Source: Photorhabdus laumondii subsp. laumondii (GTDB lineage: Bacteria > Pseudomonadota > Gammaproteobacteria > Enterobacterales > Enterobacteriaceae). From it: 64,000 bases of DNA. The notes under the pieces were generated by a model that was not told the DNA's origin, ran no database searches, and saw only the letters and a program-made list of their open reading frames with translations. Numbering within the stretch: the first letter of the stretch is position 1; each line of letters starts with the position of its first letter. The position numbers and the translations under genes were made by a program. The stretch is from assembly GCF_003343245.1 (NCBI RefSeq), contig NZ_CP024901.1, positions 2,170,001 through 2,234,000 of the forward strand, given 5' to 3'. This document shows, piece after piece, positions 3,095 through 20,400 of this stretch.

Positions 3095-4969
3095 TTACAC
3101 ATTTGGCACTGAAGATAGGATTGTTATTATCTCCTTAATGGTTGTATCAAGCTGTTCCATGAAATGTTTTTTTAGGGGCGGCATTCGAGGTATTTCTTTC
3201 GAGATTTTATTTTGTAACTCAATCCAAAACCCCTCTTCAACTTTCAGATAGTTACATGCTTTTAGACCGTTAAGTGTATCTCCTGATGTATAACGTTCTT
3301 TTATGATATAAGTGAAGTAAGATGTTATATGATTGCTTGATTGTAATAAGCATTTTACTAAGTCTTTAGCATTTAATTTATTGAAAAATGGCTTAAACTG
3401 ATTTTCAGTATATAAAATATTGATCAGCTCATCCTTGTTTCCTTGCGCAAGGTATGTAAATATTTCATTTGCTCTGATGATTTCTGCTTGGTATTTTAAT
3501 TTGTCAGAGATAGATTTACGTTCAGACTTGAGTAAATTAAATAGTTTTCTAAAGTCTTCATCTGAATCATTGTAGTAGCTATAGCCAGTATTGTTTCCAA
3601 ATACTATATCTTCAATAGAGTGATTGTCCAAAATAGCCCAGTGATCTTTATAGGTTTTAATGTATTTATAAACTGTATCATTTATTTCATCGATTTCCTT
3701 ACTAATTAGAGCGTTTTTTGAGAAGTAAATAATTAAGGCTAATTTATGTAAGTAAACCTGATGCTCTTCCTCCTGAAGAGAGTCGAACTCCAAAAGAAGC
3801 TGATTGGTAAGAGAGATAAACTGCTCCTCATTAAGTGTGTTAAAATTCCATAATTTGAACCAGAGGGGATGCTCATTGTTTTTTGGTTGTTTAAAATATA
3901 CAAGTTCATCAGTGGCTGACTTTAAATTACTTGCATCACCTTTGAACAAAATATCAGCCCATAAATCACCGGTATACAAGTTTCTATAACTAATGTCATA
4001 TTTATGAAATACATTCTTAGAACCATCGCTATTGGCTTTTTCACATTGGAATGGCTCATTATGTCTTAATTTTTCCTCGCTTAGCTCACCACTTTTCATT
4101 TCTAATGATAAAGCAAAGAAAACACGAATCAACAGCGATGAATACTCTTCATTTTTGAGTTGTTCTTCATCGATATAATTTGCAATGTATCCAAAATCTA
4201 AAATACTTTGCTTGAGTTTTCTGAGATTTGTATCCTCTGAGCGTATATAAATATTTTTAATGACATCTCTATGTCTTTTTAATGACTCACATTTTGATTG
4301 ATCAAGGAAACCTTTCAAAACCCTATCAATATTATGCTTGATTTGAAATGTCTTACCGATAACTTTTTCTTTAAATTTTGAATAAACATCCTTAGTTTTA
4401 TCCTCGTGTGATTTATCCTTTTCATATAGAATTTTTTCGTTAGCTATGAGAATGACTTTAACCTTTGAAATTTCGACAAGGTAATTAACATATCCCAGAA
4501 TTTCCTTTAACGGGATATCAGTACGCTCAAGATCATCTAAAGCTATGATGATCTCTCCGCTATCCGTATTAGTAGAGAATATGTCGCTGAATTTTATTTT
4601 ATCTAAACTTGCATTAATATCTATATCTGGTTTGCTATCGCCGTTTATATCTATCTTACAACCGAGTTTTAATGCTCCCTTTAGAATATTACCAGCTAAC
4701 TTAGTATATCTGTGGCCTAATAGTGGGTGTAATGATTGAAAAATCATTTCATCAATACTGGATGTGGTTTTAAATCCGAATAAACTTATTTTTATTATTT
4801 TATTTCCAGACTGATTATCAACGGCGTTTTCATTATATTCCTTTATAAAACTTTCTATAAAATGGGTTTTTCCCGCTCCCCACCCGCCAGTAATCATGAA
4901 AGCATACTCTGGAGCACTTGTATTTAAATAATAATTTAGATTGTCAATTATATGTTTATTAAGTTCCAT
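3095..4969 (-). CDS. KAP-family P-loop NTPase
   Basis: 624 aa. The Walker A is at residues ~28-35 (GGWGAGKT), preceded by FMITG. The Walker B is near residue 141 (IIIALDDLERTD), followed by a sensor-like stretch (KVILIANEKILYEK). This arrangement, with a long variable C-terminal region, is typical of KAP NTPases, a family that includes phage-exclusion proteins such as PifA of plasmid F. I see no transmembrane pair between the Walker motifs, so this is a soluble version. It lies about 60 bp downstream of the relaxase gene on the same strand and may be transcribed with it. A defence role is an inference from family and context. Confidence 0.75.
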   Translation of the reverse strand: MELNKHIIDNLNYYLNTSAPEYAFMITGGWGAGKTHFIESFIKEYNENAVDNQSGNKIIKISLFGFKTTSSIDEMIFQSLHPLLGHRYTKLAGNILKGALKLGCKIDINGDSKPDIDINASLDKIKFSDIFSTNTDSGEIIIALDDLERTDIPLKEILGYVNYLVEISKVKVILIANEKILYEKDKSHEDKTKDVYSKFKEKVIGKTFQIKHNIDRVLKGFLDQSKCESLKRHRDVIKNIYIRSEDTNLRKLKQSILDFGYIANYIDEEQLKNEEYSSLLIRVFFALSLEMKSGELSEEKLRHNEPFQCEKANSDGSKNVFHKYDISYRNLYTGDLWADILFKGDASNLKSATDELVYFKQPKNNEHPLWFKLWNFNTLNEEQFISLTNQLLLEFDSLQEEEHQVYLHKLALIIYFSKNALISKEIDEINDTVYKYIKTYKDHWAILDNHSIEDIVFGNNTGYSYYNDSDEDFRKLFNLLKSERKSISDKLKYQAEIIRANEIFTYLAQGNKDELINILYTENQFKPFFNKLNAKDLVKCLLQSSNHITSYFTYIIKERYTSGDTLNGLKACNYLKVEEGFWIELQNKISKEIPRMPPLKKHFMEQLDTTIKEIITILSSVPNV

Positions 4970-5029: not shown

Positions 5030-6544
5030 TCATTTGTTCTTAATGATATTAGAGCTTGATGGCTTGAGTTTAAGAAAGTTTACCCCCTTAATTAGTTCGA
5101 GTGGTAATGAAGGTGACGTCCCATTATCGTAATCACTAACGGATTTAACGCTATTAATACGACTTGGGAAACGGCTGATCTCATCCGGTGTTGGCTTATA
5201 GTCATCGTGGTTAAACTTAGCTTGTTTCTCATATTCACTACGTGAAACACGACGGCCTAATACCTCATCAAAGACATAGTTTTCAGCAATACGTTTATCA
5301 TGTTCTTCACTGATAATATCAACTTTAGTTTTGTTCGTTTTAGCCCATATAAATTTATCTCTGATAAAATCAACTAAAAGAGCAGTGAAGCGTTTAAAGA
5401 TATTATCCTGACGTGGAGTAGCCTGTATCCTTTTAACATGTTCAGGGGCGATTCTGGATGGCCTTTTTGGGGTTTTAGAAGAGGTTGTTTTCAGAAGAGT
5501 ATTTGTTCCAGAGTCAGAAATACTTACATATGGCTTCTTAGCAGCAACGACCTTACTGATTTTTGTTTTATCACGGTAAGATTTAACACCTCTGGCTCTT
5601 GTATGAGGAGCCGGAGCGACCAGAACAGGTTTCAGTTCTTCAGCGTTCAATGAACAGGTACGGGATTCAGGTAATACAATTTCTTCTGGTTCAGCAAGAA
5701 CAGCTACAGTAAAGCTTCTGACGTCAACGACGATTTCAAGATCAAGTTCACTGAATGTTTTGTAGACTTCAACGGCTTCTTGCTTGGCAGCATCACGAAC
5801 AGCCTGTTCTGCGGCTCTTTGTTCCTGAGCTGCTTTACTACGCCATTTAGCACTGTGGATACGCTTCATAGAAGGGCGGTTTGTTTCGGCGGATTTAGCA
5901 AGCCACAGCGCTTTTTCTTCATTATCTAAAGCTACTGCTGCTTTTTCCAATGCTTCCTCGTGCTGGGCCTGAAGGGAACGATGATCAATACGTTCTGATG
6001 AACCAGCAGCAGCAAGGAAGCTGTTCGCCATCGATGCCCATGATTCACGCCACAACACAGACATTTTTCTGTCGTTCCAGCTTCTTTCTTTTTTACCAAA
6101 ACCTTCCGGGCCAATGGTTTTTAATGTCAACATAACGTGAGCGTGGGGGTTATCACTATCAAGATCATGGAAAGCGATATCAGCAATCATGCTTTTATCA
6201 ACGAAATTTTTCTGACAATACTCAAGGACAAGTTTTTTCTTATCATCATTGTTTAACTCGGTAGGAATAGCAACATCGAAATAACGAGCTGTTTGTCCGT
6301 TATTTTGACGTTCAACTCTTTCAACTTCATTCCACAATGCCGTGGAGTCCTTTACGATATGTTGAGGAGCATTAACGGGGGCTAATATGAAATGCCCGCA
6401 TAAATCAGTACGGCGGCTATAATCATAGGTATCACCTGTTCTTTCATCTGTGATTCTGCAACGGGCATGATAGGCAGCTTTAGCAACGGAAGACTTGCCT
6501 TCAGAGCGTTTCACAATTTTAAAATCAAGATGAAAAATAGCCAT
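5030..6544 (-). CDS. MobA/MobL (MobQ) family relaxase
   Basis: 504 aa. The N-terminal ~200 residues are a relaxase domain. MAIFHLDFKIVKRSEGKSSV is followed by AAYHAR, whose Tyr is the likely nicking residue, and then by the metal-binding histidine motif HDLDSDNPHAHVML. The remainder is basic and coiled, with no primase or helicase domain visible. Proteins of this type nick oriT to start conjugal transfer of mobilizable plasmids and integrative elements. The divergent hairpin-rich region just upstream (6545-7344) is the natural place for oriT. No coupling protein or mating-pair genes are in the window, so transfer would need a helper. Confidence 0.85.
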   Translation of the reverse strand: MAIFHLDFKIVKRSEGKSSVAKAAYHARCRITDERTGDTYDYSRRTDLCGHFILAPVNAPQHIVKDSTALWNEVERVERQNNGQTARYFDVAIPTELNNDDKKKLVLEYCQKNFVDKSMIADIAFHDLDSDNPHAHVMLTLKTIGPEGFGKKERSWNDRKMSVLWRESWASMANSFLAAAGSSERIDHRSLQAQHEEALEKAAVALDNEEKALWLAKSAETNRPSMKRIHSAKWRSKAAQEQRAAEQAVRDAAKQEAVEVYKTFSELDLEIVVDVRSFTVAVLAEPEEIVLPESRTCSLNAEELKPVLVAPAPHTRARGVKSYRDKTKISKVVAAKKPYVSISDSGTNTLLKTTSSKTPKRPSRIAPEHVKRIQATPRQDNIFKRFTALLVDFIRDKFIWAKTNKTKVDIISEEHDKRIAENYVFDEVLGRRVSRSEYEKQAKFNHDDYKPTPDEISRFPSRINSVKSVSDYDNGTSPSLPLELIKGVNFLKLKPSSSNIIKNK

Positions 6545-7344: not shown

Positions 7345-7734
7345 ATGACATATAAATACATTAACTTCATGGGGCTGGATTTCAATAAGATAGCGGAGAT
7401 GAAAAAATCGTTCACTGGATTTGAAAAACGAATACAAATCAACAATGATGACTTTGACGATGAGCTATTCTATTTTTGTTGCTTTATGGATTACTTTCTT
7501 GAACGCCATGACAGCGTATCTTTCCCTGCTTATTATAAATTTTGCGTGTCTCTGGATGCTTACCTGTATTCACTCATGTATCTCGGAGAAAACATCTCAA
7601 TGATGAACTTAATCGGTTTCTTTCCCGGCAAACTGTTCTGGCATACCGTTGATAATGGAAATGATGATGTTTTTTGTATACTTCTTTCATTTTACATGAA
7701 TGAATGGAAAAAAGGGAAGAATTCTGATGAGTAA
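7345..7734 (+). CDS. orphan protein of the mobilization region (129 aa)
   Basis: The ATG at 7345 follows aaaggaaaaataa (Shine-Dalgarno aagga). The protein is acidic and aromatic-rich with no signal peptide. Its end overlaps the next gene by 8 nt, so the two are translationally coupled. Position, divergent from the relaxase and immediately upstream of a TraD-like accessory gene, suggests a mobilization role, but no motif supports that. Function unknown. Confidence 0.55.
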   Translation: MTYKYINFMGLDFNKIAEMKKSFTGFEKRIQINNDDFDDELFYFCCFMDYFLERHDSVSFPAYYKFCVSLDAYLYSLMYLGENISMMNLIGFFPGKLFWHTVDNGNDDVFCILLSFYMNEWKKGKNSDE

Positions 7735-8044
7735 ACAGGGAGATATTAAAAGCAGAAAACCACGAATAGAAAAAACAATTAAACAAAAAATAGCTTCGGC
7801 ACAGATGCATCTGAATCGACTTAAGAGCAAAGAAAAATCTCTGACCAAGAGTGCTGAAACACGTCTGAAGATTATTTTAGGGGCAGAAGTGGCTAAAGCT
7901 GTTGGCTGTAAAGTAGAAGATGTCGATAAGGAGTTTGTATTGGGAATGTTATTACAGGCTTCGAATATTAATGTGGAGGCTAAAGCAAGAATTAAGTTAC
8001 GAGGAAAAAGATTTCCTGAGGATATGGTGGGAAGGCAGGAATAA
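7727..8044 (+). CDS. TraD-like mobilization accessory protein
   Basis: 105 aa. The ATG at 7727 is preferred over 7700 because it overlaps the previous stop (ATGAGTAA) and has a gggaag Shine-Dalgarno. The pattern is a basic coiled N-terminus (QKIASAQMHLNRLKSKEKSL), a segment RLKIILGAEVAKAVG and an acidic stretch leading to EFVLGMLLQAS. This matches the small TraD proteins that accompany MobA/MobL relaxases. Those proteins help the relaxase at oriT and are unrelated to the large TraD coupling ATPase. Assignment is by pattern, with moderate confidence. Confidence 0.6.
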   Translation: MSKQGDIKSRKPRIEKTIKQKIASAQMHLNRLKSKEKSLTKSAETRLKIILGAEVAKAVGCKVEDVDKEFVLGMLLQASNINVEAKARIKLRGKRFPEDMVGRQE

Positions 8045-8162
8045 TATACTCATAAAAGCGATGTGGGATAAATATTTTTTGATCCTCCAGATTTTTATGG
8101 GGGATTAAATTTATCCAGAGTAAGCGATTATGATAATCTTTTATTTAAATAGATAAATATAT

Positions 8163-8189
8163 TTGACAATTGATATTTAATGTTATAAT
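8163..8189 (+). promoter_or_regulatory. strong sigma-70 promoter for the hairpin array
   Basis: Consensus -35 TTGACA (8163-8168) and consensus -10 TATAAT (8184-8189) with an extended TG at 8181-8182. The spacer is 15 nt, shorter than ideal but compensated by the extended -10. Predicted transcription starts near 8196, exactly where the hairpin series begins. Confidence 0.65.
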
Positions 8190-8195
8190 TAGTAA

Positions 8196-8362
8196 GTGTT
8201 CCTTGAGAACATTCACTTCAACGAAGTGTCTGATTGCCCCATATATGGGGAGTGGTTTACAGCCCAATGGGCTGATTGAGTTGCCCCAAGTGTGGGGGTA
8301 TGTATTCTGCCCAATGGGTAGTTCCCTTAAAGGGAAAACAAAGGGCCGTATGGCCCTTTTGC
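8196..8362 (+). ncRNA. candidate structured RNA: eight consecutive hairpins
   Basis: The stems run head to tail. H1 8197-8211 (tgttc/gaaca), H2 8214-8228 (cacttc/gaagtg), H3 8237-8250 (cccca/tgggg), H4 8260-8274 (cagccc/gggctg), H5 8284-8297 (cccca/tgggg), H6 8307-8321 (ctgccc/gggtag), H7 8322-8336 (ttccct/agggaa) and H8 8340-8359 (aaagggcc/ggcccttt), which has a T-rich tail and looks like an intrinsic terminator. H3-H4 and H5-H6 are two copies of a 47-nt unit. In the second copy an A-T pair becomes T-A and a G-C pair becomes G-T, so pairing is kept although sequence changed. There is no open reading frame with a ribosome site. Function unknown. Confidence 0.6.
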
Positions 8363-8378
8363 TTGTGTATTTGTCTAA

Positions 8379-9359
8379 TTAATCACAACTTACTTCACTT
8401 AGTTCTTTGGCTATGAACATAAACTCTGCACGATGATTTTTATCTTTAGATATGTATATCTTTCCGTCTACATCAGCAATAATGAATAGTTTTATCTTGC
8501 TTTTGTCTTTCTGTATTATAACTAACCTTTCAGGTATGGAGTATTTCACCAGATCCTTTTCGTGATAACATTGATTAACATAACCTAACCCGATCATATT
8601 CGCTATTTTTTCTGATACACCTGTTGAAAATGCTGTTGCAATATAAAAAACAATAAGCAAGGAGAAAAAAACGTAACACCATATCCTATTCTTTTGATCT
8701 CGATTACGTTGATGTATGTCTGCTAATCCAATAATCGCCAATGTAACGATAATAACAAATATTGAAAGAGCTTGAATAATACTAATAAAAGAAAAATTTG
8801 TTTCTATATCAAAGTTCAGTGTAATGGAAAGAAACCCAAACATAGCAATGCTTATTGCTAATAATAATACCGTATATAAAAATAACTTTAATGTGACGGC
8901 TATTTTCTTATAATGAAAGGGTTTTGTTATCGCTAAAAAATGAAGAGTAAGTACAATTATAACAACTAATGAAACTCCGACATAAAAATGGTAAAATGCG
9001 AATGAAGAAGCTACTCCACATGATGTGAAGTATAATAAATATATTAATTTTCTTCTTTTTATCCCCTTTATCTTTTCTTTGACTAATATATCATAATAGA
9101 GGCATCGGGCAATTGCTGGAGATAAGTTGAATGATATTAAAAAACATCCAACAATAAAAAGTATTATAAAAAAAGATAATGCACCTGTACTGATGAGTAA
9201 ATTTGATTGTATCAGATCAATAAACTTCACACCGTGGGTGCGTGCATAGCTAAAGAGGAACCATGCTCCTGAAAACGTACACATAAAAATTATTAGAGTT
9301 ATGATTTTTTCTATGTTTTTTAATCCCAAGATGGATTGTTGTTTTATTTTGTTTAACAC
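8379..9359 (-). CDS. polytopic membrane protein, orphan (326 aa)
   Basis: Six to seven hydrophobic segments lie between residues ~18 and 245 (for example IITLIIFMCTFSGAWFLFSY, LSFFIILFIVGCFLI, YTVLLLAISIAMFGFLSI, SIFVIIVTLAIIGLA, YVFFSLLIVFYIATAF). A soluble C-terminal domain of ~80 residues follows (SIPERLVIIQKDKSKIKLFIIADVDGKIYISKD). No family recognised. It is transcribed in line with the CoiA-like gene upstream, 55 bp away, so the two may act together. The codon use is AT-rich like the rest of the island. Confidence 0.6.
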   Translation of the reverse strand: MLNKIKQQSILGLKNIEKIITLIIFMCTFSGAWFLFSYARTHGVKFIDLIQSNLLISTGALSFFIILFIVGCFLISFNLSPAIARCLYYDILVKEKIKGIKRRKLIYLLYFTSCGVASSFAFYHFYVGVSLVVIIVLTLHFLAITKPFHYKKIAVTLKLFLYTVLLLAISIAMFGFLSITLNFDIETNFSFISIIQALSIFVIIVTLAIIGLADIHQRNRDQKNRIWCYVFFSLLIVFYIATAFSTGVSEKIANMIGLGYVNQCYHEKDLVKYSIPERLVIIQKDKSKIKLFIIADVDGKIYISKDKNHRAEFMFIAKELSEVSCD

Positions 9360-9414
9360 TTTGTTATCCTTTTCATGGGTTTTATCTGGCAGAGATCTTT
9401 TCCCCGATTGACAG

Positions 9415-11010
9415 TTAAACTATGCTTTGAAGAAACAATTGTAGCAGTGGTGTTTCTTTAATGACAATATCACCTTTCACCGTCAAAATACTTCTTTCGA
9501 TTAATGGTCGTAGAACCTCAAGGATTATATGCCTTCTAAAAATAAGATGGCGATGAGGTAATTGAATGGTTTTCTTATTGGCAATTGCTTCTGCTTCTAA
9601 AGATATAAATTCAGGATCGAGAGGTAGGATGTCACTCATTTCATCAAATATGTTATAAACTGTAATGCTGCTTCCAGTTGATACATTATCTATTATATTA
9701 AGCATGATGCTTATTACTAAAATTGACCATCTCTGGAACATCCAAAGGCTGGGTGATTCTTTCATTTCTTTGAGCATTTTAGGTAATTTTGGCCACTTCC
9801 TCTGTATGCTTGGTGTAAATAGATCATTGCTTATAAGCCATTTACTCCATGTGTTATAGTCTCTATTGAAGAGTTCATCTGTCATGTCTAAATACTCATA
9901 TGAGCGATTTTTTAATCTATTGCTCATATAAATTGTTAGGGATTTTATATGTATATTTTCTTTACAGGTTTTAATAAATTGAGACCGTACTCGTGATTTT
10001 TCTTTTTCAATAGACGGATGTTTCAACCAGCGCCATTGCGGTTTGTTACTATCTTCAGGATAGAATCTAATAATTACACTTCCATCAAATTCATCCATTA
10101 GATTCAAATTAAAATAACTTAGTAAATATATTATCCATATATGAAATTCTTTCCCTTTATGCAAGATGTCTCCACGCACGATAAAACCACCATCGGTTTT
10201 TTGTATAAGCGATAGCTTATCAACGGTACGATTCCTCTTTGCGTACAGACAGAAGTTTTCAGTAAAAACCTCATTAGATTCTTCATAAGATATACTGTCG
10301 TGAATACTTGGCAGGAATACGGTTTTATTTTTCATGGTTTTATTTATTGAATTTATTGTGTTTTTTAATCTTCTTGAGCGCCTCTCATTTATTTCTTTTT
10401 CGACAGCTAACTCATGACATTCAATCGCTTTAATACTCTCAGAGTAATAAAACCATTCATTGGGGACTTGATTGTTTTTAATACGTTGATGCCATTCTTC
10501 TATCTCGATATCTTCAGAGTATTCGAACACTAACTCTACTGAATTTATTTTGTTATTTTTAAAGTAACGTACCTTTTCAGGTTCGCATTTATGTGTTACG
10601 CAGATCTCCACGATGTATAATCCAGTGTCTGTGTTAAGGCAGACATCTGATACATAGTTTCCAATTCGGTGTTCTAAAGTTGCGGATAAAATTTTGGTTT
10701 TTATTAGTGGTGTTTTTAGCGTGTGGTTCTTATACGCAAAAGTCAATTGAGGTATTGTTAATACATCTAAGCGAAGGAAAAAATGTTGCATTGCTAAATG
10801 CAGCTGTGTCATTCGGCAAGCACGATTCTCAATAAGGTTTCTATGAGCGAAATGATGTTTTTTTAATTTTCCTCCATTGCGAGCTATTAATTCATCATTG
10901 CATGACTTACATATGCAATTACACTTAGCCCCGTTAGGAACATCATCAATATGCATGATCTGTTTTGTTTCTTTTTCCACAGCATATTCAATGATCAACA
11001 CAAACTCCAT
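9415..11010 (-). CDS. CoiA-like protein with Cys knuckle and nuclease-like core
   Basis: 531 aa. The N-terminus has paired cysteines, C-C-C-C spaced CNCICKSC at residues ~30-37, then KLKKHHFAH, the pattern seen in CoiA competence-family proteins. Next comes a PD-(D/E)XK-like core: YVSDVCLN, then LYIVEICVTHK, where the E-x-C-V-T-x-K places acidic and lysine residues as in restriction-type nucleases. The C-terminal ~330 residues are unlike anything I recognise. In Gram-positives CoiA takes part in recombination during transformation. Here, on a mobile island beside a membrane protein, defence or DNA processing is possible but unproven. Confidence 0.6.
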   Translation of the reverse strand: MEFVLIIEYAVEKETKQIMHIDDVPNGAKCNCICKSCNDELIARNGGKLKKHHFAHRNLIENRACRMTQLHLAMQHFFLRLDVLTIPQLTFAYKNHTLKTPLIKTKILSATLEHRIGNYVSDVCLNTDTGLYIVEICVTHKCEPEKVRYFKNNKINSVELVFEYSEDIEIEEWHQRIKNNQVPNEWFYYSESIKAIECHELAVEKEINERRSRRLKNTINSINKTMKNKTVFLPSIHDSISYEESNEVFTENFCLYAKRNRTVDKLSLIQKTDGGFIVRGDILHKGKEFHIWIIYLLSYFNLNLMDEFDGSVIIRFYPEDSNKPQWRWLKHPSIEKEKSRVRSQFIKTCKENIHIKSLTIYMSNRLKNRSYEYLDMTDELFNRDYNTWSKWLISNDLFTPSIQRKWPKLPKMLKEMKESPSLWMFQRWSILVISIMLNIIDNVSTGSSITVYNIFDEMSDILPLDPEFISLEAEAIANKKTIQLPHRHLIFRRHIILEVLRPLIERSILTVKGDIVIKETPLLQLFLQSIV

Positions 11011-11726
11011 TTCTTTACTATGACTGACATGTCTAGATTAAATCCTTGTATTGTGTATGTCTACTGCATAAGGCAACGCGATCCTTAGCTTTCAGGTCGT
11101 TACTTGCTGCGAGCAAACTTAGATAGCCTGACCATGTCATTAATATTGGCACCTAAATAGCTGCGCGGGATAGCAATCCATTTAGAGCGTAAGGCATTGG
11201 TGCTGTTTTCTCTGTCTACCACGCTGTATCAGGTCTACGATGTATGCCTTTACGCAACATGTTACATGCCAGTCAGCGTAAGTGTAGCGGTATTAGATAC
11301 AGCTATTTAGATAACAAGTCCACCACTGCAACATCAGGAGGTGCTGATCAAGATGTTTGCCTAAGAGTGTAAGTAATGTGAACGCTGTTGTCTTACTTAT
11401 TGCATATCTGAATGATTTTTACTTTTCATATAACTATATTGCATAATGAATTACCTATTGACCTGTCAATGCAACCATATAACCATCAATATTGATCCCT
11501 GATAGTCATCATCATTGTCTTTATCACTCGATTACCGACACGAGCATGAGATGCTGGTAGCATATGTTGAAAAAAATGCTGGCTCTGTTTATCTGCAACG
11601 CTCTGTGCTGTGATAGCTCTACTTCAGAGCGGGCTAAGACCACGATTTTATAGACTTTTTGCCCTTCCTAAATTAGATTGGTTAGAAAAGTCAGTAGCGA
11701 TTCATTAAGTAAGGGTGGGGTTTTCA
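11011..11726. other. gene-free stretch between CoiA-like gene and nuclease gene
   Basis: About 715 bp with no convincing gene in any frame. Short open stretches without ribosome sites are scattered through it (for example on the minus strand at 11,100-11,220), and base composition is more balanced than in the neighbouring genes. This looks like remnants of former coding DNA. I see no repeats or IS ends. Confidence 0.4.
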
Positions 11727-12812
11727 ATGGAACGTAATGTTTTGGGTCATGCTCAAAGAGAAATTTCAGGAGCAACCACATTCGGAAAATATGATTTTCA
11801 ATATCATTGGGCCTTATGCAGAATAATTGAAAAGCATAAATCAAATTCTGACTATGCATTATTAATCGAATATCATGAGGATGTCGTTATCGCAGACTCA
11901 TTGTATGGAAGTTCGGCAAAATTTGAATTTTTTCAAGTAAAGAATACTGGAAAACCTTTCACTTCTGACGCCTTAACCAAACGAGAGCAAGGTGCTGAGG
12001 GAGCTAAGAGTTCCATTCTAGGTAAGCTATTAAGCTCATGTATTGGTACAGACTATGAAGCACGCATTACGGAAATCGGTCTTGTGTCCTCAAGTGGTTT
12101 CTCATTTGAACAAAGAGATAAGAAGTTAAAATTAGACATTATAACTTCAGGTGATCTTAGTGTAGATTGCTTATCGGGGTTAACTGAAAAATTAAAGGAT
12201 GAGCTTGGAATAGCTCTCTTGCCAGAAAATCTAAAATTCATTGTTCCAAAAATAAAATTAGAGAACCAAGAAGAGTTTGTCATTGGTAGATTTGCTGAAT
12301 TAGTAAATGAAATATTTCCAAATAGTCATTGTAATGCCGTTAATATTTATAGAGCAATAATCGATGAAATTCATCGCAAAGGACAGAATACTTACGATTT
12401 TACTGTTTGGGAGAAAATGGTAGAGGATAAATCTCTCACATCTCATAAGGTAAAGGATGTTATAGCTGTTAACACAACAAGCCCAAAATTTGAAGACTTT
12501 GAGAAAGACTTTGAGTACTTAGCTAAAAATGATATGAAATGGAACACCTTAACTTATCGGAAGATTAATAAAAAAATAAAACAACTTTTCTTGCGCCGAA
12601 TCGGACATTTGTCGGCTTTTGATATGAATATAATGAGAATAGTCCAGCAGGCGCTAAGTAGTGTCCCAGAAGAAGACTTTACAGAAACCCGTGATTACAT
12701 TGAGTCAGTTATTGTAAAAGCTCAAGAACTTAATATTGAAGATCAAGTACCAGAACATGACGATATATTATGCGAGATAGTTTATAGCTTTTTAAAGGTG
12801 ATGCATGAATAA
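11727..12812 (+). CDS. DUF4297/Cap4-like dsDNA nuclease of an ABC-three-component-type system
   Basis: 361 aa from ATG 11727; a GTG at 11715 is possible, but the ggtgggg ribosome site fits the ATG. The N-terminal ~120 residues show the DUF4297 nuclease pattern: GATTFGKYDFQYHWALCRI, then ALLIEYHEDVVIAD, then FEFFQVKNTGK. The D/E...E...QxK arrangement is that of a PD-(D/E)XK enzyme. The C-terminal half is probably the partner-binding or sensing region. A Rad50-like ATPase gene starts 59 bp downstream. Nuclease plus ABC ATPase gene pairs of this kind form ABC-three-component anti-phage systems. Family call is by motif. Confidence 0.7.
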   Translation: MERNVLGHAQREISGATTFGKYDFQYHWALCRIIEKHKSNSDYALLIEYHEDVVIADSLYGSSAKFEFFQVKNTGKPFTSDALTKREQGAEGAKSSILGKLLSSCIGTDYEARITEIGLVSSSGFSFEQRDKKLKLDIITSGDLSVDCLSGLTEKLKDELGIALLPENLKFIVPKIKLENQEEFVIGRFAELVNEIFPNSHCNAVNIYRAIIDEIHRKGQNTYDFTVWEKMVEDKSLTSHKVKDVIAVNTTSPKFEDFEKDFEYLAKNDMKWNTLTYRKINKKIKQLFLRRIGHLSAFDMNIMRIVQQALSSVPEEDFTETRDYIESVIVKAQELNIEDQVPEHDDILCEIVYSFLKVMHE

Positions 12813-12978
12813 TATTGGAAGTAATAAAGAAAACTATAAATTATTAATTCGGAATTTAAGGAACAAGAAAAATGAGAAGCTTGAAATTTCAACGATTAGT
12901 TCTGATATCAGATTCGAAAAGACTTGCGAATCAGTTCTCGTTCCAGAAAAGATTGAATTTAATTACCGGAAAAGATAA
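12805..12978 (+). CDS. possible middle-component remnant (57 aa), overlapping the ATPase start
   Basis: A short frame begins at ATG 12805, overlapping the nuclease stop (atgaataa), and runs 57 codons (MNNIGSNKENYKLLIRNLRN...). Its last 107 nt overlap the 5' end of the ATPase gene in another frame. ABC-three-component systems usually carry a small middle component between effector and ATPase, and this ORF sits exactly there but is much shorter than usual. It may be a degenerate or minimal version, or chance. Confidence 0.3.
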   Translation: MNNIGSNKENYKLLIRNLRNKKNEKLEISTISSDIRFEKTCESVLVPEKIEFNYRKR

Positions 12979-14605
12979 CAGTATTGGCAAGTCCACTCTA
13001 GCAAAAAGTTTACTGTGGTCTTTAGGATGCGATCCTGTTTTCGATGAAGAATGGAAATCAAATGACATTAAATCTATTTTATATTTTACTTTAAATAACA
13101 AAGAGTATTTTTCATGTCGAGGAAGTCACTCAATAATTTTGGGAGCTATCGGTGATGAAGCTCAAAGATATATAAATATAACTGGTGATTTTTCGAAAGG
13201 CTTCTCGGATCTCGTCAATTTCAAAATGAAGCTTCCTAATCGTGGTGATGGAAACTTGGAGACACCTCCTCCAGCATATTATTTTTTACCATTCTATATT
13301 GACCAGATAAAAAGCTGGAGTTCACCTTGGAATTCATTCGAGAACTTAGGGCAATATTCCAACTGGAAAGGTCCATTAATCAAATACTTTACTGGTTATC
13401 TTAAGCCTGAGCATTTTGATATTGAGGAAAACATTTATGAATATAGTGAAATCAAAAAAGAATCAGCACATAAAATAGAAAAATTTCAAAGCGCCGTTGA
13501 AGTTATAGTTGATAACACGGTTGATTCCCCTATAACTTTAGATAATAATGACTTCATTAAGATTCAGAATGAAATAAAAAATGAACTTTACGACTTGATT
13601 GATTACCAAACAAGACTTTATGATGCTCAGGCTACGATCACTTCAAATATTTATGATCTCGAAAGTCAGTATGCGTTAGCCATTACTTCTGCAAACGAAC
13701 TCGAGGCAGATTATAAATTTGCGGTAGAATCCATACCTACTGATTATTTAGAGTGTCCATTGTGTGGGACTCTTCACGATAACTCACTACCTAACAGAGC
13801 GTTGCTTCTTTCAGAAAAGGACTCATTGCTTAATGAGGCAAATTCAATAGCATCTAAAATAGTGGAACTCAAATCTTCATTGAACTCATTAAATGAGGAC
13901 GCTCAGTTTATTACTAACGAAATCGAAAGAATAAATAATAAATACATTACAGACGACGATGCGGTTAAAAAAGGTCTCATTGCTCAAGTAATCGATACTC
14001 TATCTACTGAAAACGTCTCAAAAAATATTCAAATTAAAATCGATAATGAAGACCTTAACATCAGCAAGGCCAACAGTTCCATCAAGGAATTAAAAAAGGA
14101 CCAGAAAAAACTTCTTTCTACCAAAGAAAAGGAAGAATTGAACTCGTCCTTTATGTCAAAACTGCTGGCAAATATTGAAGCACTGGGTTCGACAGGAATA
14201 AACCTTAGCAAAGTTAAATCACCCACTGATTACAAACAGTTGCTTGGTGGTGGTGCTGCTGAGGCTGCTAGAGGATTACTTGCTTATCAACTCTCTGTAC
14301 TGCAACAAATTCATGGTGCTAAAACTTGCGTAGTGCCTCCTTTCGTCATCGATACGCCCAACCAGCAGGAACAGGCGGGATACCGTTATGAAACTGTCAT
14401 TAAAGAATTAATGCGTAGCGTTCCTCAGGATTATCAGATAATACTGTGTGCAATGGAGAATGATGCATTAAATGAATTTAAACATGATGCTAATGTTATT
14501 GTGTTAAATTCAAATAGACTTCTAACTGCTTCACAATACGATTCTTTGAGGTCTGAATATAAATCTATTCAGGCAATAGTTACAGATCAAAGTGATAAGG
14601 AATAA
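12872..14605 (+). CDS. Rad50/SMC-like ABC ATPase with zinc hook (DUF3732-type)
   Basis: 577 aa. Walker A at residues ~33-42 (GKDNSIGKST) follows the typical opening KFQRLVLISDSKRLANQF...LNLITG. A coiled-coil middle carries a zinc-hook motif, CPLCG, near residue 295. The C-terminal lobe has a signature-like GGGAAEAARGLLAYQ, then Walker B and D-loop PPFVIDTPNQQEQ, and an ILCAMEN strand, which is the DUF3732 pattern. It would dimerise on ATP and control the nuclease encoded upstream. Start: ATG 12872 with aaggaac 8 nt before it. No lesion seen. Confidence 0.75.
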   Translation: MRSLKFQRLVLISDSKRLANQFSFQKRLNLITGKDNSIGKSTLAKSLLWSLGCDPVFDEEWKSNDIKSILYFTLNNKEYFSCRGSHSIILGAIGDEAQRYINITGDFSKGFSDLVNFKMKLPNRGDGNLETPPPAYYFLPFYIDQIKSWSSPWNSFENLGQYSNWKGPLIKYFTGYLKPEHFDIEENIYEYSEIKKESAHKIEKFQSAVEVIVDNTVDSPITLDNNDFIKIQNEIKNELYDLIDYQTRLYDAQATITSNIYDLESQYALAITSANELEADYKFAVESIPTDYLECPLCGTLHDNSLPNRALLLSEKDSLLNEANSIASKIVELKSSLNSLNEDAQFITNEIERINNKYITDDDAVKKGLIAQVIDTLSTENVSKNIQIKIDNEDLNISKANSSIKELKKDQKKLLSTKEKEELNSSFMSKLLANIEALGSTGINLSKVKSPTDYKQLLGGGAAEAARGLLAYQLSVLQQIHGAKTCVVPPFVIDTPNQQEQAGYRYETVIKELMRSVPQDYQIILCAMENDALNEFKHDANVIVLNSNRLLTASQYDSLRSEYKSIQAIVTDQSDKE

Positions 14606-14688: not shown

Positions 14689-15952
14689 CTATCTTCTTTG
14701 AGTAAACTCAAATGGCCTGACCATACCGTTATGGTTTGCATCAAGGAAATCAGCCCACCATTGGAGCATCAGGCGGCGCTGTTCGAGGTGTTTTGCCTTG
14801 TGGGTATAAGCAGCACGGACGCTGTTGCTTTCCTTATGGCTCATTTGAAGCTCCACAGCGTCTTCTGACCACAAACCTGACTCAATTAAGGCACTACAGG
14901 CCAGCGTGCGAAAACCGTGTCCACAGATGTCCTGCTTCGTGTCATAGCCCATATTGCGAAGGGCTTTGTTGATGGTGTTTTCGCTCATGGGCTTAAACGA
15001 GTCATAACAGCCAGTAAAGATTAATCCATCATCATGGCCTTCTTTATAAGTCAGTTGTCGGATCTCTTTCAGTATCCTCATGGCTTGCTTACACAAGGGA
15101 ACGAAATGCTTACGCTTCATTTTGGCCCCACGAGTGGAATGTTTGACGTTTTCAATCGCTTCCCGCTGTTCGGGGATCACCCACAACTTACTTTTGAAAT
15201 CAATTTCAGACCAACGGGCGAAACGAAGTTCACTGGAACGAATGAAAATCATCAGATTGAGCTGAATAGCCAGTATGGTTAACCTGCGACCTCTGTATTC
15301 GGCAATTTTTTTCAGTAGTTGAGGGATTTCTTCCAGCTCCAGTGCCGGGCGGTGTTCAGTCTGTGGTTTCTGAACAGCACCTTCCATATCATAGGCGGGG
15401 TTATGGAGTATCAGTTTTTGCTGTACGGCATGACGCAGGATCGCTGTAATGTATTGTTGAATGCGCATGGCAACTTCAAGATAACCAAGTGCCTCAACCT
15501 TTTTCACAGGAACCAGCAGATCGCCTGTATCCAGCTCGGCAACATCTTTGTCTCCAATCGCCGGGAAGACATAGGTTTCAAGGCGCTTCCATACGGAATC
15601 ACCATAATCTTTTGACCATTTTGTTTTTGTGGCAAACCAAGCCTTAGCCACCATAGCGAAGCAACGTGTCTTATCACGCTTGGCCTTTAGCTCTTTAACC
15701 TCTGCCTGTAGGGTCAATACCCTGAGCAAGAAGCCTTCTGGCCTCATCACGGCGTTGTCTTGCATCAGCAAGTGAAACAGCAGGGTAAACACCTATAGAG
15801 AGGATTTTTTGCTTCCCTTCGAAGCGGTAAGCCATTTGCCAGTATTTGGAACCCTTCGGGGTAACGCGAAGGAACATACCAAAGCCATCAGTTAACTTGT
15901 ATTCCTTCTCGAGGGGTTTTGCATTTTTTGCTTTAATATCAGTCAGTGACAT
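14689..15952 (-). pseudogene. int: P4-type tyrosine integrase, frameshifted
   Basis: The N-terminal domain is read from ATG 15952 (MSLTDIKAKNAKPLEKEYKL..., ending LLAQGIDP). About 15,705 the frame shifts by one base, and the rest continues in another frame (AEVKELKAKRDK onward) to 14689. The catalytic residues are present in the second part: Arg in RSSELRFARWSE, HGFRTLACSAL (HxxR) and Tyr in SVRAAYTHKAKHLEQR. Length without the shift would be ~420 aa, normal for the family. It lies 180 bp from the 3' end of a tRNA-Asn, the standard arrangement for an island integrase. Unless frameshifting rescues it, the island cannot excise by itself. Confidence 0.85.
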
Positions 15953-16096
15953 GAAAACACCCCTCGATTGTTGGTAAAAGGCAAATCGAACCAGCATTAC
16001 CAGCATTTTTACCATCAAAATGATATGGCTTCGAGAGGTTTTTAGTGAACGAGGGTGAACGACTGAAGGGGGATAACCAATTGATAGAAATGCAGA

Positions 16097-16131: not shown

Positions 16132-16207
16132 TGGCTCCCCCAACTGGACTTGAACCAGTGACATACGGATTAACAGTCCGCTGTTCTACCGACTGAACTA
16201 TGGAGGA
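16132..16207 (-). tRNA. tRNA-Asn(GUU), copy 1, at the island junction
   Basis: 76 nt including the encoded CCA. The anticodon loop is CUGUUAA with anticodon GUU. The acceptor 5' strand UCCUCCA pairs with UGGGGGA, leaving one G-U pair; the other three copies have UGGAGGA and pair fully. It also differs by one base beside the D arm (AACAGCGG against AACGGCGG). The 3' half faces the integrase, so the variant acceptor strand may have been supplied by the integrated island. Otherwise it is a normal cloverleaf. Confidence 0.95.
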
Positions 16208-16227
16208 ACTCCTTCACAACGGGGCGT

Positions 16228-16256
16228 ATACTAGTGATATGCTTTGGCTTTGTCAA
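16228..16256 (-). promoter_or_regulatory. promoter of tRNA-Asn copy 1
   Basis: On the minus strand: TTGACA at 16256-16251, 17-nt spacer, TAGTAT at 16233-16228, followed by a GC-rich discriminator (CGCCCCG), typical of growth-rate-controlled stable RNA promoters. Confidence 0.7.
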
Positions 16257-16433
16257 AGTAGAAAACAATAAAAAAAGTTTGTTTGCGGGCAAAATGCACT
16301 TGTTGTTATATTTTTATGCTAATCACTTGAGATTTGATGGAATTTTATTCCACTAACGTAAGTTGAATAGAACTACCGTGCTTATGTTGTGAGTAAATAG
16401 TTGGGAGAATTAAGTAGAGAAGTCAGAATAGCA

Positions 16434-16458
16434 AAAATCCCGCATTAAGCGGGATTTT
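16434..16458 (-). terminator. terminator of tRNA-Asn copy 2
   Basis: Perfect 10-bp stem aaaatcccgc/gcgggatttt, followed on the minus strand by a T-run. It sits 8 nt past the tRNA 3' end. Confidence 0.75.
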
Positions 16459-16465
16459 CATAATT

Positions 16466-16541
16466 TGGCTCCTCCAACTGGACTTGAACCAGTGACATAC
16501 GGATTAACAGTCCGCCGTTCTACCGACTGAACTATGGAGGA
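16466..16541 (-). tRNA. tRNA-Asn(GUU), copy 2
   Basis: 76 nt with encoded CCA, anticodon GUU, fully paired acceptor stem. Its upstream ~100 bp resembles that of copy 1, so the two arose by tandem duplication of a unit that includes the promoter. Promoter on the minus strand: TTGACA at 16590-16585, 17-nt spacer, TAATAT at 16567-16562. Confidence 0.96.
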
Positions 16542-16561
16542 ACTCCTTCACAACGGGGTGC

Positions 16562-16590
16562 ATATTAACGATATGCTTTTGCTTTGTCAA
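16562..16590 (-). promoter_or_regulatory. promoter of tRNA-Asn copy 2
   Basis: Minus strand TTGACA, 17-nt spacer, TAATAT, then a GC-rich discriminator. Same layout as copy 1. Confidence 0.7.
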
Positions 16591-16686
16591 AGCAGAAAAT
16601 AACAAAAACGATCTGTTTGCTGTCAAACTGAACTTGTTGATCTATTTTTATGCCGAATAAGGCTTATTTGTTGGAGATGTATGCTA

Positions 16687-16812
16687 TATACCCGTCATCT
16701 TTCAAGTTGCCTCTTTGTTGGCGGCACTTGCTCACCTCGGTCACATCGTTACCTATGCTCCCGGGGATTCACTCCCTTGCCGTCGCGATCCATCTTGAAA
16801 TCCATAGGGTAT
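16687..16812. repeat. ERIC-type repeat 1
   Basis: About 126 bp bounded by tataccCGTCATCTTTCAAG and its rough complement at the far end (ATCTTGAAATCCATAGGGTAT), with the inner signature GCTCCCGGGGATTCACTC. The whole unit can fold into one long imperfect hairpin. It lies between tRNA-Asn copies 2 and 3. Confidence 0.85.
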
Positions 16813-16880
16813 GGAAGGAAACGGGTTGATTGGAATTGTTATATTATGTTGTAAGCAATTGGTGGAATTAGGAATGCAAA

Positions 16881-16905
16881 AAGCCCGCACTTGGCGGGCG
16901 GGCTT
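16881..16905 (-). terminator. terminator of tRNA-Asn copy 3
   Basis: Stem aagcccgc/gcgggctt followed on the minus strand by a T-run (the aaaaa at 16878-16882 on the plus strand). Confidence 0.7.
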
Positions 16906-16915
16906 CTTATGAATT

Positions 16916-16991
16916 TGGCTCCTCCAACTGGACTTGAACCAGTGACATACGGATTAACAGTCCGCCGTTCTACCGACTGAACTATGGAGGA
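16916..16991 (-). tRNA. tRNA-Asn(GUU), copy 3
   Basis: 76 nt with encoded CCA, same sequence as copy 2. Promoter on the minus strand: TTGACA at 17042-17037, 17-nt spacer, TATTAT at 17019-17014. Confidence 0.96.
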
Positions 16992-17013
16992 ATTGTCCTT
17001 GACAACGAGGCGA

Positions 17014-17042
17014 ATAATATCTGGGTATTTTGGGCTTGTCAA
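17014..17042 (-). promoter_or_regulatory. promoter of tRNA-Asn copy 3
   Basis: Minus strand TTGACA, 17-nt spacer, TATTAT. Confidence 0.65.
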
Positions 17043-17702
17043 AGGGGAAAATTAAAAATTGAGTTTGATTGGTTAACTGATGTTCAATAATGATATTTTT
17101 TACCATTTTTTGATCAATTAAATTTTCAGCTCAAGGAATGCGAGAGTTAACTGATATTTATCCATGATAATTAGATGGTGAAAATATCATCTATATTTTT
17201 ATTTAGGAAATAATTAATCATGAGCATTAAAAATATAATTAAATATATATTAGATAATTTTATTTTTGTGTTATTTATGATATTTTTATATTTCATGGTA
17301 ATTTTCCTATTTTATCTGTTTTAATAGATCACTTATTGTATTTTGATATTTATTAGCGGATTTACTCGTCTATAATTATTAACTGAAAAAGTAATTTGTT
17401 ATTTGATCTCTGATTTGGCAAACATGATGTTAATTCACGCCAAAACGAATGGTAAAGAGTTTGCCATTAATAATGAAATCTCATTTTCTGCTAGTATACT
17501 AAGATATTCTCGATCTAATAATATGTTTGTATAGGCATATAAAATGCAATAAAGTGAATAATAACTATTTCAGGAAGTATTTTAAATTAAATAATTGGTA
17601 AGGAGGTGAAAATAATTTTAAATATAAAATAAGTAAATAATATTTCCCCGAAAAGAGTGGCTAATTTTCTGGTGATTTTTATAGAATAGATGAGGAGAAG
17701 TC
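17043..17702. other. AT-rich gene-free stretch before orphan gene
   Basis: 660 bp of very AT-rich DNA without a credible open frame. It probably contains the promoter of the gene at 17703, but several AT-rich boxes compete and I cannot choose one. Such AT-richness is typical of H-NS-bound accessory DNA. Confidence 0.4.
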
Positions 17703-18779
17703 ATGAAGTTTTTAATTAATACTGATGTAACTAACTGGGTTTCACATAAAGACTGGTTTAACGTTCCATTACGATTGTTTGTAGTTCTACAAGATGATGA
17801 TGGTTCTGCATCATTAGAAAATTACAAAAGTAAAATCGTGGTGAATGGCTTGAATGAGGGCGAATATGAAATCGTAAATAACAATAACATATTTGATCCC
17901 ATTAGTAGAGCATCTGAAATATTAGTAAAAATCAAGACAGATCAGAGGGTTAATGCTACAATCGGTTTTGATGCTGAAGTAACGGATGCGAGTGGTGGTG
18001 TGGTAGCGAAAGCCGCTCTGAGTCGATTTAAACTAAAGTCAGTAGGATTGGCAGCACCTGTATATCCGGCACATTATGATAATGTTATTAGCGGTGATGA
18101 TATAAAAGCAGGAGTTAGAGTACTTTTTACTGATTCCAATATTTTAGATAAATATGAACTGAAATTTGTTTTTGATAATGATAATGTTGAAGTTGTTCCT
18201 GGTGTACAAAATAGCGGTGATATTCGTAGTTTGCCGGTGAAAAATGATCTTCTTACTGAAGGCAAGCATGATAGCCTTTATTATACTATTAGCGAAAGCG
18301 GTACTGCTAGATTTTCTGCTATTCAACGTGTACTTGTAGAGCTTGATAAAGATTCTGCAACAGTCCAGGTGCGTCGTGATTTAGAAGTGCCTTATATTGA
18401 AGAGTATGATGAAAATAGGGGTCGACCGATTGGTGAGAGTATTATTGATTATGATATCAATATTTTGGTCAACGATGTAAAACTTAAAGATAAGGAGTTG
18501 AAAAAAGGTACAGTACATATAAGAGGGTATTCTGCTGACAATCGAGATACAGGGGAATTAGTATTAAAGATAGATTCTTTACAAGGTAGTGAAGATAATA
18601 TCTTCCGGTTAGCTGTAATTAAGCCTGAAGAAAATGCTGATGGTCAACCGGGTGGAGTTGATTTCTTTAATTATATAGGTAATGGTCAGGTAAAAATTCA
18701 CTACGAAATATCATTTGTTGGTGAAGTGAATGTATTGCATAAATCTAAAGAGAAGGTTTATAAGGTAGTTCTGGACTGA
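17703..18779 (+). CDS. orphan 358-aa protein between tRNA-Asn genes
   Basis: The ATG at 17703 follows gatgaggagaagtc (Shine-Dalgarno gaggag). There is no signal peptide or membrane segment. The composition is rich in Asp, Val, Ile and Asn with alternating patterns that suggest beta structure, and it may hold two or three similar beta domains (VVNGLNEGEYEIVNN; GIRS/VPVKND; HIRGYSADNRDTGELVLKI). No family recognised. It is the only protein gene in the tRNA-Asn array, is preceded by AT-rich DNA and ends at a bidirectional terminator, so it stands alone. Likely horizontally acquired. Confidence 0.65.
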   Translation: MKFLINTDVTNWVSHKDWFNVPLRLFVVLQDDDGSASLENYKSKIVVNGLNEGEYEIVNNNNIFDPISRASEILVKIKTDQRVNATIGFDAEVTDASGGVVAKAALSRFKLKSVGLAAPVYPAHYDNVISGDDIKAGVRVLFTDSNILDKYELKFVFDNDNVEVVPGVQNSGDIRSLPVKNDLLTEGKHDSLYYTISESGTARFSAIQRVLVELDKDSATVQVRRDLEVPYIEEYDENRGRPIGESIIDYDINILVNDVKLKDKELKKGTVHIRGYSADNRDTGELVLKIDSLQGSEDNIFRLAVIKPEENADGQPGGVDFFNYIGNGQVKIHYEISFVGEVNVLHKSKEKVYKVVLD

Positions 18780-18821
18780 TTATTTTGGTGCTGGCAAATG
18801 TGCTGTTGCTTACATAGAAAA

Positions 18822-18845
18822 AAGCCCAATAAGAATTGGGCTTTT
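18822..18845. terminator. bidirectional terminator after the orphan gene and tRNA-Asn copy 4
   Basis: Stem aagcccaat/attgggctt with A-run before and T-run after, so it can stop transcription from both the plus-strand gene and the minus-strand tRNA. Confidence 0.8.
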
Positions 18846-18924
18846 CTGCATGCTAGCCATATTTTTGTATACTGGTTATTTCATGCGTCCTAGAGATTCT
18901 CTTTAGCATCTCCAGGCTTGAATT

Positions 18925-19000
18925 TGGCTCCTCCAACTGGACTTGAACCAGTGACATACGGATTAACAGTCCGCCGTTCTACCGACTGAACTATGGAGGA
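18925..19000 (-). tRNA. tRNA-Asn(GUU), copy 4
   Basis: 76 nt with encoded CCA, identical in sequence to copies 2 and 3. Promoter on the minus strand: TTGACA at 19051-19046, 17-nt spacer, TAATAT at 19028-19023. Confidence 0.96.
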
Positions 19001-19651: not shown

Positions 19652-20134
19652 ATATTGACCTGATTAAGCAAAGGAAAAGTGAAATATTTTCATAAATATA
19701 TTGTTCTTAAGGTTAGCATGGGGGAGGTAATCTTACGTAGATCAGTTGTTTTATTTTAATCAGCCAATTGTTATTGACTAAGATTAACTCTAATGCTTTC
19801 ATTAAGATAAAGGTTGAATAAATCAAAAAAATTTATAACTAATGGCATTGTTTGTTAATTATTGCTTTAATAATGAGCATAAATATTTTTTTTAAAACAC
19901 CTATGCATAAAAAGGTTGCTATTCCTTTTCTATCATGAGTTAATGCAGCCGGCCTGATAAACAGACCTACTTTATGTACGACATCTTGAGTTAATGAGTT
20001 ATGTGTAAGTGTTATCCCCAGATAGCCTTTGTTGACGCGTTTCCTTCTTAGTGCCTCCATAAGTAATAGCTGATATAACTGGCCAATACATGCCCAATGG
20101 TGGCAAAATTTTTTTGATATATAGGAAAGTCACA
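19652..20134. other. intergenic region ylaC-cspC, no gene seen
   Basis: 483 bp. Short frames on the minus strand lack ribosome sites and recognisable sequence. The right part is presumably the promoter and long 5' leader of the cold-shock gene, as is usual in this family. Confidence 0.4.
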
Positions 20135-20347
20135 ATGTCTGACAAAATGAAAGGTCAAGTGAAGTGGTTCAACGAGTCTAAAGGCTTCGGTTTCATCACC
20201 CCAGCTGACGGTAGCAAAGACGTATTCGTTCACTTCTCTGCCATTCAGGGTAACGGTTTCAAAACTTTGGCAGAAGGCCAGAACGTAGAATTCACCATTG
20301 AAAATGGTGCGAAAGGTCCAGCTGCAGCAAACGTAATGGCTATCTGA
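20135..20347 (+). CDS. cspC: CspA-family cold-shock protein (CspC/CspE type)
   Basis: 70 aa from the ATG at 20135, preceded by aggaaag; an upstream in-frame ATG at 20090 would add residues foreign to the family. Both RNA-binding motifs are present: KGFGFI (RNP1) and VFVHFSAI (RNP2). The middle ([15 protein letters not shown]) matches enterobacterial CspC, and the end ([12 protein letters not shown]) is nearer CspE, so the letter is uncertain. These proteins are constitutively made RNA chaperones and antiterminators. A strong terminator follows. Confidence 0.9.
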
Positions 20348-20364
20348 TTGCTTGGATGATTTTG

Positions 20365-20400
20365 AAGCCCGTCACTATTTTCTATAATGACGGGCTTTTT
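20365..20400 (+). terminator. intrinsic terminator of the cold-shock gene
   Basis: Perfect 10-bp stem aagcccgtca/tgacgggctt with a 13-nt loop, then a T-run. Confidence 0.9.

Follow-up and report, generated by a model that had tools for sequence, protein, structure and literature searches.

The window, that is, the whole analysed stretch of 64,000 nt from Photorhabdus laumondii subsp. laumondii (contig NZ_CP024901.1), contains an integrated island with genes for a MobQ relaxase, TraD and a tyrosine integrase. A non-coding stretch with eight successive hairpins lies between traD and a convergent cargo gene. The island genes and features around this array are:

5030..6544, minus strand: MobQ relaxase gene (PF03389, NF041496)
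7700..8044, plus strand: TraD gene (PF06412), upstream of the RNA
8196..8361, plus strand: RNA gene as modelled, 166 nt, with a predicted start
8379..9359, minus strand: convergent cargo gene for a 326-aa protein with no significant family match, ending 17 nt after the RNA
14689..15792, minus strand: tyrosine integrase gene, continued by a second frame at 15695-16018; its family is also seen downstream of the RNA elsewhere
16132-16207: tRNA-Asn gene

Four tRNA-Asn genes occupy 16132-19000, with the island at the first of them. The 15 kb preceding the window gave no attachment-site copy (at least 12 nt of the tRNA-Asn end), so the far end of the island may be lost. Beside mobQ, a KAP-family NTPase gene (3095-4969) matched the candidate defence family PDC-S49 over nearly its full length, and a Lamassu-type pair, LmuA with a Cap4-like nuclease domain and the ATPase LmuB, lies between the RNA and the integrase (11715-14605). 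The 326-aa cargo protein, which from its sequence is probably membrane-bound, forms a convergent pair (8379-11010) with a 531-aa protein that has a weak CoiA-like N-terminus; at the same place in another island (L032) a CoiA-family protein adjoins a TIR protein. The 326-aa and 531-aa proteins are a possible uncharacterised defence pair. The window also contains the cspA thermoregulator (Rfam RF01766) at 19968-20401.

Structure and conservation of the hairpin array

The promoter, stems and repeated units were mapped as follows, where both-sided changes are base-pair changes on both sides of a stem among the aligned copies described below:

8163..8189, plus strand: sigma-70-type promoter, by sequence
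8163-8168, plus strand: -35 box TTGACA, kept among aligned loci
8181-8189, plus strand: extended -10, TGTTATAAT
8184-8189, plus strand: -10 box TATAAT, with TGn at 8181-8183
8198-8201/8207-8210, plus strand: stem 1, 4 bp, weak; both-sided changes in three of four pairs
8214-8219/8223-8228, plus strand: stem 2, 6 bp; both-sided changes in three of six pairs
8234..8280, plus strand: 47-nt unit 1 (stem 3, conserved linker, stem 4), repeat D1; one-unit forms occur elsewhere
8237-8241/8246-8250, plus strand: stem 3, in unit 1; one both-sided pair
8260-8265/8269-8274, plus strand: stem 4, in unit 1; one both-sided pair
8281..8327, plus strand: 47-nt unit 2 (stem 5, conserved linker, stem 6), repeat D1
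8284-8288/8293-8297, plus strand: stem 5, in unit 2; no both-sided pair
8307-8312/8316-8321, plus strand: stem 6; both-sided changes in three of six pairs, in up to 10 of 34 copies
8322-8327/8331-8336, plus strand: stem 7, 6 bp; both-sided changes in four of six pairs
8340-8347/8352-8359 (feature 8340..8361), plus strand: stem 8, intrinsic-terminator-like; both-sided changes in four of nine pairs

An earlier note on this DNA had described a promoter with consensus -35, consensus -10 and an extended TG directly before eight stems. The promoter elements are present, and reading through 8198-8359 confirmed the count of eight. The note did not mention that the promoter spacer is short (15 nt); the promoter is missing from the promoter scan because the scan takes spacers of 16-18 nt. 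Among 28 aligned loci the -35 was conserved and the -10 poorly conserved, with an exact TATAAT at 15-nt spacing in the window copy only. The last stem, which the note had called an intrinsic terminator, is indeed a stem followed by a T run on the plus strand, but the run has just four T and the terminator scan listed stem 8 on the minus strand only. A plus-strand intrinsic terminator at stem 8 is plausible, and modest by sequence. The two units, spaced 47 nt apart, are 74% identical over 38 nt (repeat D1), and the last 6 nt of unit 2 are the start of stem 7. As had been observed, they differ in sequence yet keep their pairing: A8261-T8273 in the first unit against T8308-A8320 in the second is a true A-T to T-A swap.

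The claim that the array holds no ORF needs qualification, since a frame of 70 codons with a TTG start overlaps it (8170-8382). However, codon periodicity was absent in all frames, and internal stops occurred in 17, 13 and 21 of 21 relatives, one frame being open in 8 of the 21. Loss of a 47-nt unit is, moreover, not a change by a multiple of three. With no sign of coding in these comparisons, the RNA gene is classed as non-coding.

The stretch 8163-8361 had a predicted minimum free energy of -67.0 kcal/mol, against -49.1 +/- 4.0 in shuffled sequences (z -4.47, 0 of 200 as good). In this structure stem 3 pairs with stem 5 in a long-range helix of 13 bp that replaces both local hairpins, and the consensus fold likewise joins the two.

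Covariation was assessed in two alignments. The first (A1), made with MAFFT independently of the covariance model, held 21 copies out of 28 blast loci, leaving out four truncated or one-unit copies (L040, L041, L042, L044) and three near-identical ones (L043, L045, L046). In A1, 96.0% of the cells paired, compared with 27-58% for slid structures, and 12 of 47 pairs showed both-sided changes (2.6 in shuffles; 0 of 500). The second (A2) was fitted to the covariance model and drew on 37 chosen sources with 39 matches at E <= 1e-12, several of them one place under two locus ids, which gave 34 distinct rows; the copies of G061 (L105, L128) and G719 (L106, L129) and a degenerate third copy in G730 (L110) were left out. 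Here both-sided changes were found in 19 of 47 pairs and 55 cells, against 6.5 and 10.8 in shuffles (0 of 500), with kinship ignored in this comparison. The earlier note had staked its reading on whether homologous loci keep the stems; this test was run on A1 and A2, in which the stems are retained and covary. By this comparison of aligned sequences, the stems are under selection.

This support is uneven, being carried by stems 1, 2, 6, 7 and 8. Stems 3 and 5, with their C4/G4 pairing, hardly vary, and their joint covariation was not above shuffles in the alignments. The long-range helix between them is 96.6% paired, again with covariation not above shuffles (A1 was also examined), and as judged from these alignments it is as compatible with the covariation as local stems 3 and 5 are. 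One-unit forms can make the local hairpin only, the stem 3/stem 5 helix being impossible in them. Across the stems there were 20 G.U states and 10 A.C states, an excess that modestly favours an RNA read from the plus strand.

The limits of conservation were examined between loci with different neighbours. Upstream (148 pairs among 20 loci with different upstream genes), identity was 0.47-0.55 beyond 60 nt, 0.60 at -60 to -46 and 0.69 at -45 to -31, then 0.74-0.80 from -30 up to the RNA start and 0.79-0.97 within the RNA, so that the promoter region rises gradually to 0.69-0.80. Downstream (174 pairs with different downstream genes; shuffled level 0.47), it fell at once to 0.54, then 0.50, then 0.43-0.44 from 30 nt past the RNA. 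On these identity profiles the conserved block spans promoter to terminator, with chance level outside. Conservation averaged 1.64 bits in stems, 1.54 in linkers and 1.31 in loops; linkers nearly as conserved as stems are more than a mere terminator needs. Over 78 pairs from 13 loci, mean identity was 86% for the RNA, 78% for mobQ DNA and 63% for mobQ third positions, the RNA exceeding mobQ in 62 of the 78.

Distribution of the RNA and its place in mobile islands

A search of Rfam gave no match on the RNA at the gathering score and none at E <= 1 in 8050-8450. A covariance model built from 21 copies, whose E-values are rough, located the RNA in 20 of 392 genomes of the same family (E <= 1e-4), representing 18 of 154 genera; it was absent from four genomes of the same genus among the 392. 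Eighteen of these genomes are clear (E <= 3e-16). The copies in G061 (E 6.9e-8) and G719 (E 9.3e-5) are doubtful: they fold poorly as this array and could be degenerate or spurious. Both are counted in the 20 genomes and in the 17 islands and 32 entries discussed below. An earlier search had matched 41 of 295 genomes at E <= 0.001, mostly through the AT-rich upstream end, and 12 of those were taken as real. A pattern scan of one-per-species genomes matched nine contigs, all nine confirmed by the covariance model, from Pluralibacter (2), Buttiauxella (2), Xenorhabdus, Raoultella, Mangrovibacter, Cedecea and one further member of the Enterobacteriaceae. In Escherichia coli, blastn with the RNA alone (E <= 1e-5) found it in 74 of 5,426 complete genomes, at one place each and always on the chromosome; this is the figure used, a first, looser search having given 88 genomes.

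A search of 394 genomes from the order turned up nothing outside the family but weak matches (best E 0.0019), taken as chance. Among 50,697 phage and 72,556 plasmid records blastn returned short matches only, which, among the matches listed (20 of 29 plasmid rows), fell in the AT-rich upstream end or the terminator, and a diverged copy used as query matched no plasmid. IMG/VR held no match to the exact pattern, a search that would miss diverged copies. In the open-access main texts on these islands we recognised no report of the array RNA: a word search of PMC6035254 and PMC8844411 for non-coding or small RNA found no RNA of the island, and no open-access paper was found that brings ICEKp258.2 together with an sRNA. 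In that element about 460 nt separate the pilus-related gene from the helicase/restriction gene, going by the coordinates given in Table 1 of PMC10763509.

Most copies have two 47-nt units. One-unit copies occur at L130 (5063-5182), at L126 (6029-6148) and in the E. coli form L042, which is present at full length in seven E. coli genomes. Two islands hold two RNA copies each, about 0.9 kb apart in L130 (4021-5182; one two-unit and one one-unit copy) and about 1.8 kb apart in L086 (11109-13279), and a divergent copy (L013/L101) is without the C4/G4 stem. In the E. coli islands L040 and L044, which carry type III restriction genes, just the 3' part of the RNA is left, the first two hairpins having been replaced.

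EARL (ROD21-like) islands are characterised by a P4-like integrase, TraD, a MOBQ relaxase, pilus genes and varied cargo (PMC6035254, PMC10763509), and the RNA-bearing islands resemble them, with the same gene set as neighbours of the RNA loci. Islands of this type have the integrase at one end, beside a tRNA or ssrA gene, and a recombination directionality factor at the opposite end, with direct repeats flanking the whole. Cargo at the other loci includes type III restriction systems, TIR proteins and methylases, among others. The earlier note had predicted homologues beside MobQ relaxases in other islands, including Xenorhabdus, and such loci were found, one of them in Xenorhabdus. Relatives of MobQ (E <= 1e-50) were detected in 31 of the 392 genomes, including 16 of the 20 with the RNA; G093, G196, G201 and G700 have the RNA and no MobQ match at this threshold. 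RNA and MobQ share a contig in 17 islands (16 genomes), at distances of 1.2 to 33 kb. In every one of the 17 the RNA is encoded on the strand opposite to mobQ, lies beyond the 5' end of that gene and points away from it. Fifteen of the 31 MobQ-bearing genomes are without the RNA at E <= 1e-4. The flanks of 14 RNA-less genomes, four of them short because contigs end, gave one remnant (L113, E 0.002), which was not counted, and reading by eye the 560-620 nt that follow the TraD or pilus gene in five RNA-less islands revealed no RNA. Since some such islands do without it, the RNA is an accessory module with a fixed place.

The surroundings were compared in 32 chosen entries, which are non-independent, with 14 from E. 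coli and with L084 and L131 being one and the same place (31 distinct). An integrase of one family was present in 28 of the 32, always on the opposite strand (convergent); the other flanks were short. A tRNA or ssrA gene stands beside the integrase in 14 of 16 annotated E. coli loci, as read from tables, the exceptions being L042, where it is not within the flank, and L041, which has tRNA-Arg. In 30 of the 32 entries (29 of 31 distinct places) the nearest downstream ORF (at least 90 aa) runs towards the RNA; the gap between the two is 4-46 nt in 29 of these 30, and the ORFs belong to differing families. The nearest upstream ORF is co-directional in 29 of 31 (28 of 30 distinct).

Over 16 loci, RNA distances showed no clear co-divergence with those of MobQ (r 0.32, p 0.13) or the integrase (r -0.04, p 0.54), whereas MobQ and integrase distances follow each other (r 0.32, p 0.012); omitting the two doubtful copies, RNA and MobQ gave a weak but positive r of 0.33 (p 0.08). 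These distances would be compatible with transfer of the RNA between islands, or with divergence in step with some other partner. A separate non-coding stretch directly upstream of mobQ is 76% identical between L086 (14346-14590) and L087 (14094-14347), whose MobQ proteins are 84% and just 45% identical to that of the window, respectively; it is a candidate oriT.

Known RNAs compared and rival explanations

RNAs of the CsrB/RsmZ type sequester a protein through GGA or ANGGA motifs in many hairpin loops. The array RNA is similar in being a row of short hairpins with repeated units between one promoter and one terminator, but it has no GGA in the stem loops of the window copy and only 0-3 ANGGA per RNA in 34 copies, and so lacks the loop motifs that define a sponge of this type. 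Type III antitoxin RNAs (ToxI, CptI, TenpI), which lie on mobile DNA, consist of tandem repeats, each tens of nt long, with a terminator behind them, and form pseudoknots; a toxin endoribonuclease gene follows directly on the same strand. The mobile setting is shared, and the repeats and terminator-like end are comparable in outline, the units being 74% alike over 38 nt; in contrast, the array RNA has one or two units, hairpins instead of pseudoknots, and no co-directional toxin gene downstream. The antitoxin role floated in the earlier note is disfavoured, since the gene that follows the array points towards it in 30 of 32 entries and varies in family. A search of 20 genomes with PF13958 gave no match, and the controls also matched nowhere. 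Racr RNA anti-CRISPRs are likewise small non-coding RNAs on mobile DNA (PMC10651486), and the C4/G4 hairpins recall type I-E repeats. An RNA of this kind would closely match a CRISPR repeat of its host. The genome itself has four I-E-like places of the form GTTCCC..GGGG(A/G)TAAAC, while the units read GTTGCCCC..GGGGGTATGTATT; the loop and 3' side of the array RNA are unlike these repeats, and L013/L101 has lost the C4/G4 stem. A CRISPR-repeat mimic was rejected by eye against the I-E-like repeats of this genome only.

The constant tail-to-tail position makes a cis-acting barrier the main rival, with the hairpin stack stopping transcription at the junction of backbone and cargo and the promoter incidental. 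The convergent gene mostly 4-46 nt downstream, the co-directional gene upstream and the scan's listing of stem 8 as terminating transcription from the convergent side would all suit such an element, as would two RNA-less islands that by eye continue after TraD with genes in the TraD direction. It leaves unexplained why linkers are conserved in sequence, beyond the stems, and why a conserved -35 precedes the array, and in the RNA-less L123 one simple hairpin with a T run separates the pilus gene from the convergent integrase; we consider it somewhat unlikely. An sRNA whose 8-10-nt linkers pair with host, island or helper-element mRNAs would account for the fact that several single-stranded stretches vary little or not at all. 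It has a functional parallel in Salmonella Genomic Island 1, whose mobilization requires a self-encoded RNA, sgm-sRNA, that arises as the 3'-terminal part of a long transcript adjacent to oriT and mpsA (PMC9299015). This is the nearest precedent by function, and its mobilization module is unrelated. In a crude test that ignored accessibility, however, pairing with start regions was not consistently beyond shuffles for int (2 of 16 below zero), traD (3 of 15) or mobQ, where a slight lean was seen (8 of 13 below zero, three at -1.7 to -2.4). The array RNA also ends in just four U, and typical Hfq-dependent sRNAs have a longer 3' U tail. Base pairing as the main mode of action is an unlikely reading.

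That both flanks vary around a constant block, that the RNA's history is not clearly that of MobQ or the integrase, and that L130 and L086 hold two copies could also reflect a recombination anchor, a block persisting through homologous recombination that exchanges modules between islands. A DNA anchor needs no structure, and the compensatory stem changes and conserved -35 would be left unexplained, which makes this improbable. Least probable of all is a single-stranded DNA element of transfer (oriT or leading-region hairpins), which the earlier note had raised and to which short loops and near-palindromic stems near the MobQ module might point: it is opposed by the modest G.U excess, by block limits that coincide with promoter and terminator, by the other conserved stretch directly upstream of mobQ, and by a distance to mobQ that ranges from 1.2 to 33 kb.

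A putative modular RNA of enterobacterial islands

A conserved structured RNA gene at this locus is strongly supported by the comparative evidence, and the stretch from promoter to terminator very probably makes an eight-hairpin non-coding RNA. The suggestion that this is a regulatory RNA of the island gains from the covarying stems, the promoter-to-terminator block and the homologues beside MobQ in other islands, and holds only as far as sequence reaches. Our preferred reading, to which we give a probability of about 0.5, is a structured non-coding RNA of about 165 nt that forms an accessory module of EARL-type islands and acts in trans, its units binding a conserved factor. The RNA would be transcribed from its own promoter, with the predicted terminator directly between it and the convergent cargo gene. 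Two leader hairpins on one side and the 3' hairpin and terminator on the other would enclose one or two 47-nt units. In each unit the conserved linker would join a C4/G4 hairpin to an AAU-loop hairpin, and each unit would offer one putative binding site for a conserved, probably host-encoded protein. By sequestering or scaffolding this partner, the RNA could serve the island whatever cargo or relaxase is present.

We infer transcription, action in trans, one site per unit and a partner conserved across host genera from the comparisons above. A protein partner is preferred over base pairing because strong hairpins dominate and the number of units varies, and because pairing with the int, traD and mobQ start regions was not consistently above controls. 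RNA divergence that does not clearly follow MobQ or the integrase fits a partner outside the island backbone. A more far-reaching version is possible but doubtful: a new family of mobile-element RNAs, swapped between defence-carrying islands, in which a modular decoy or scaffold with one site per 47-nt unit manipulates a conserved factor of the enterobacterial host, such as a nuclease or an RNA-binding protein, for establishment or for tuning of cargo.

The array RNA is conserved, absent from the RNA catalogue searched (Rfam) and shared by related mobile islands of several enterobacterial genera. Its position where backbone meets cargo is fixed in a widespread island family, and in most locus pairs compared it has changed less than the relaxase gene. 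With the alignment and covariance model, searches for it and tests of it can begin immediately. Accounts of defence islands usually centre on proteins, and a conserved RNA gene in them points to an unexplored RNA layer of island life.
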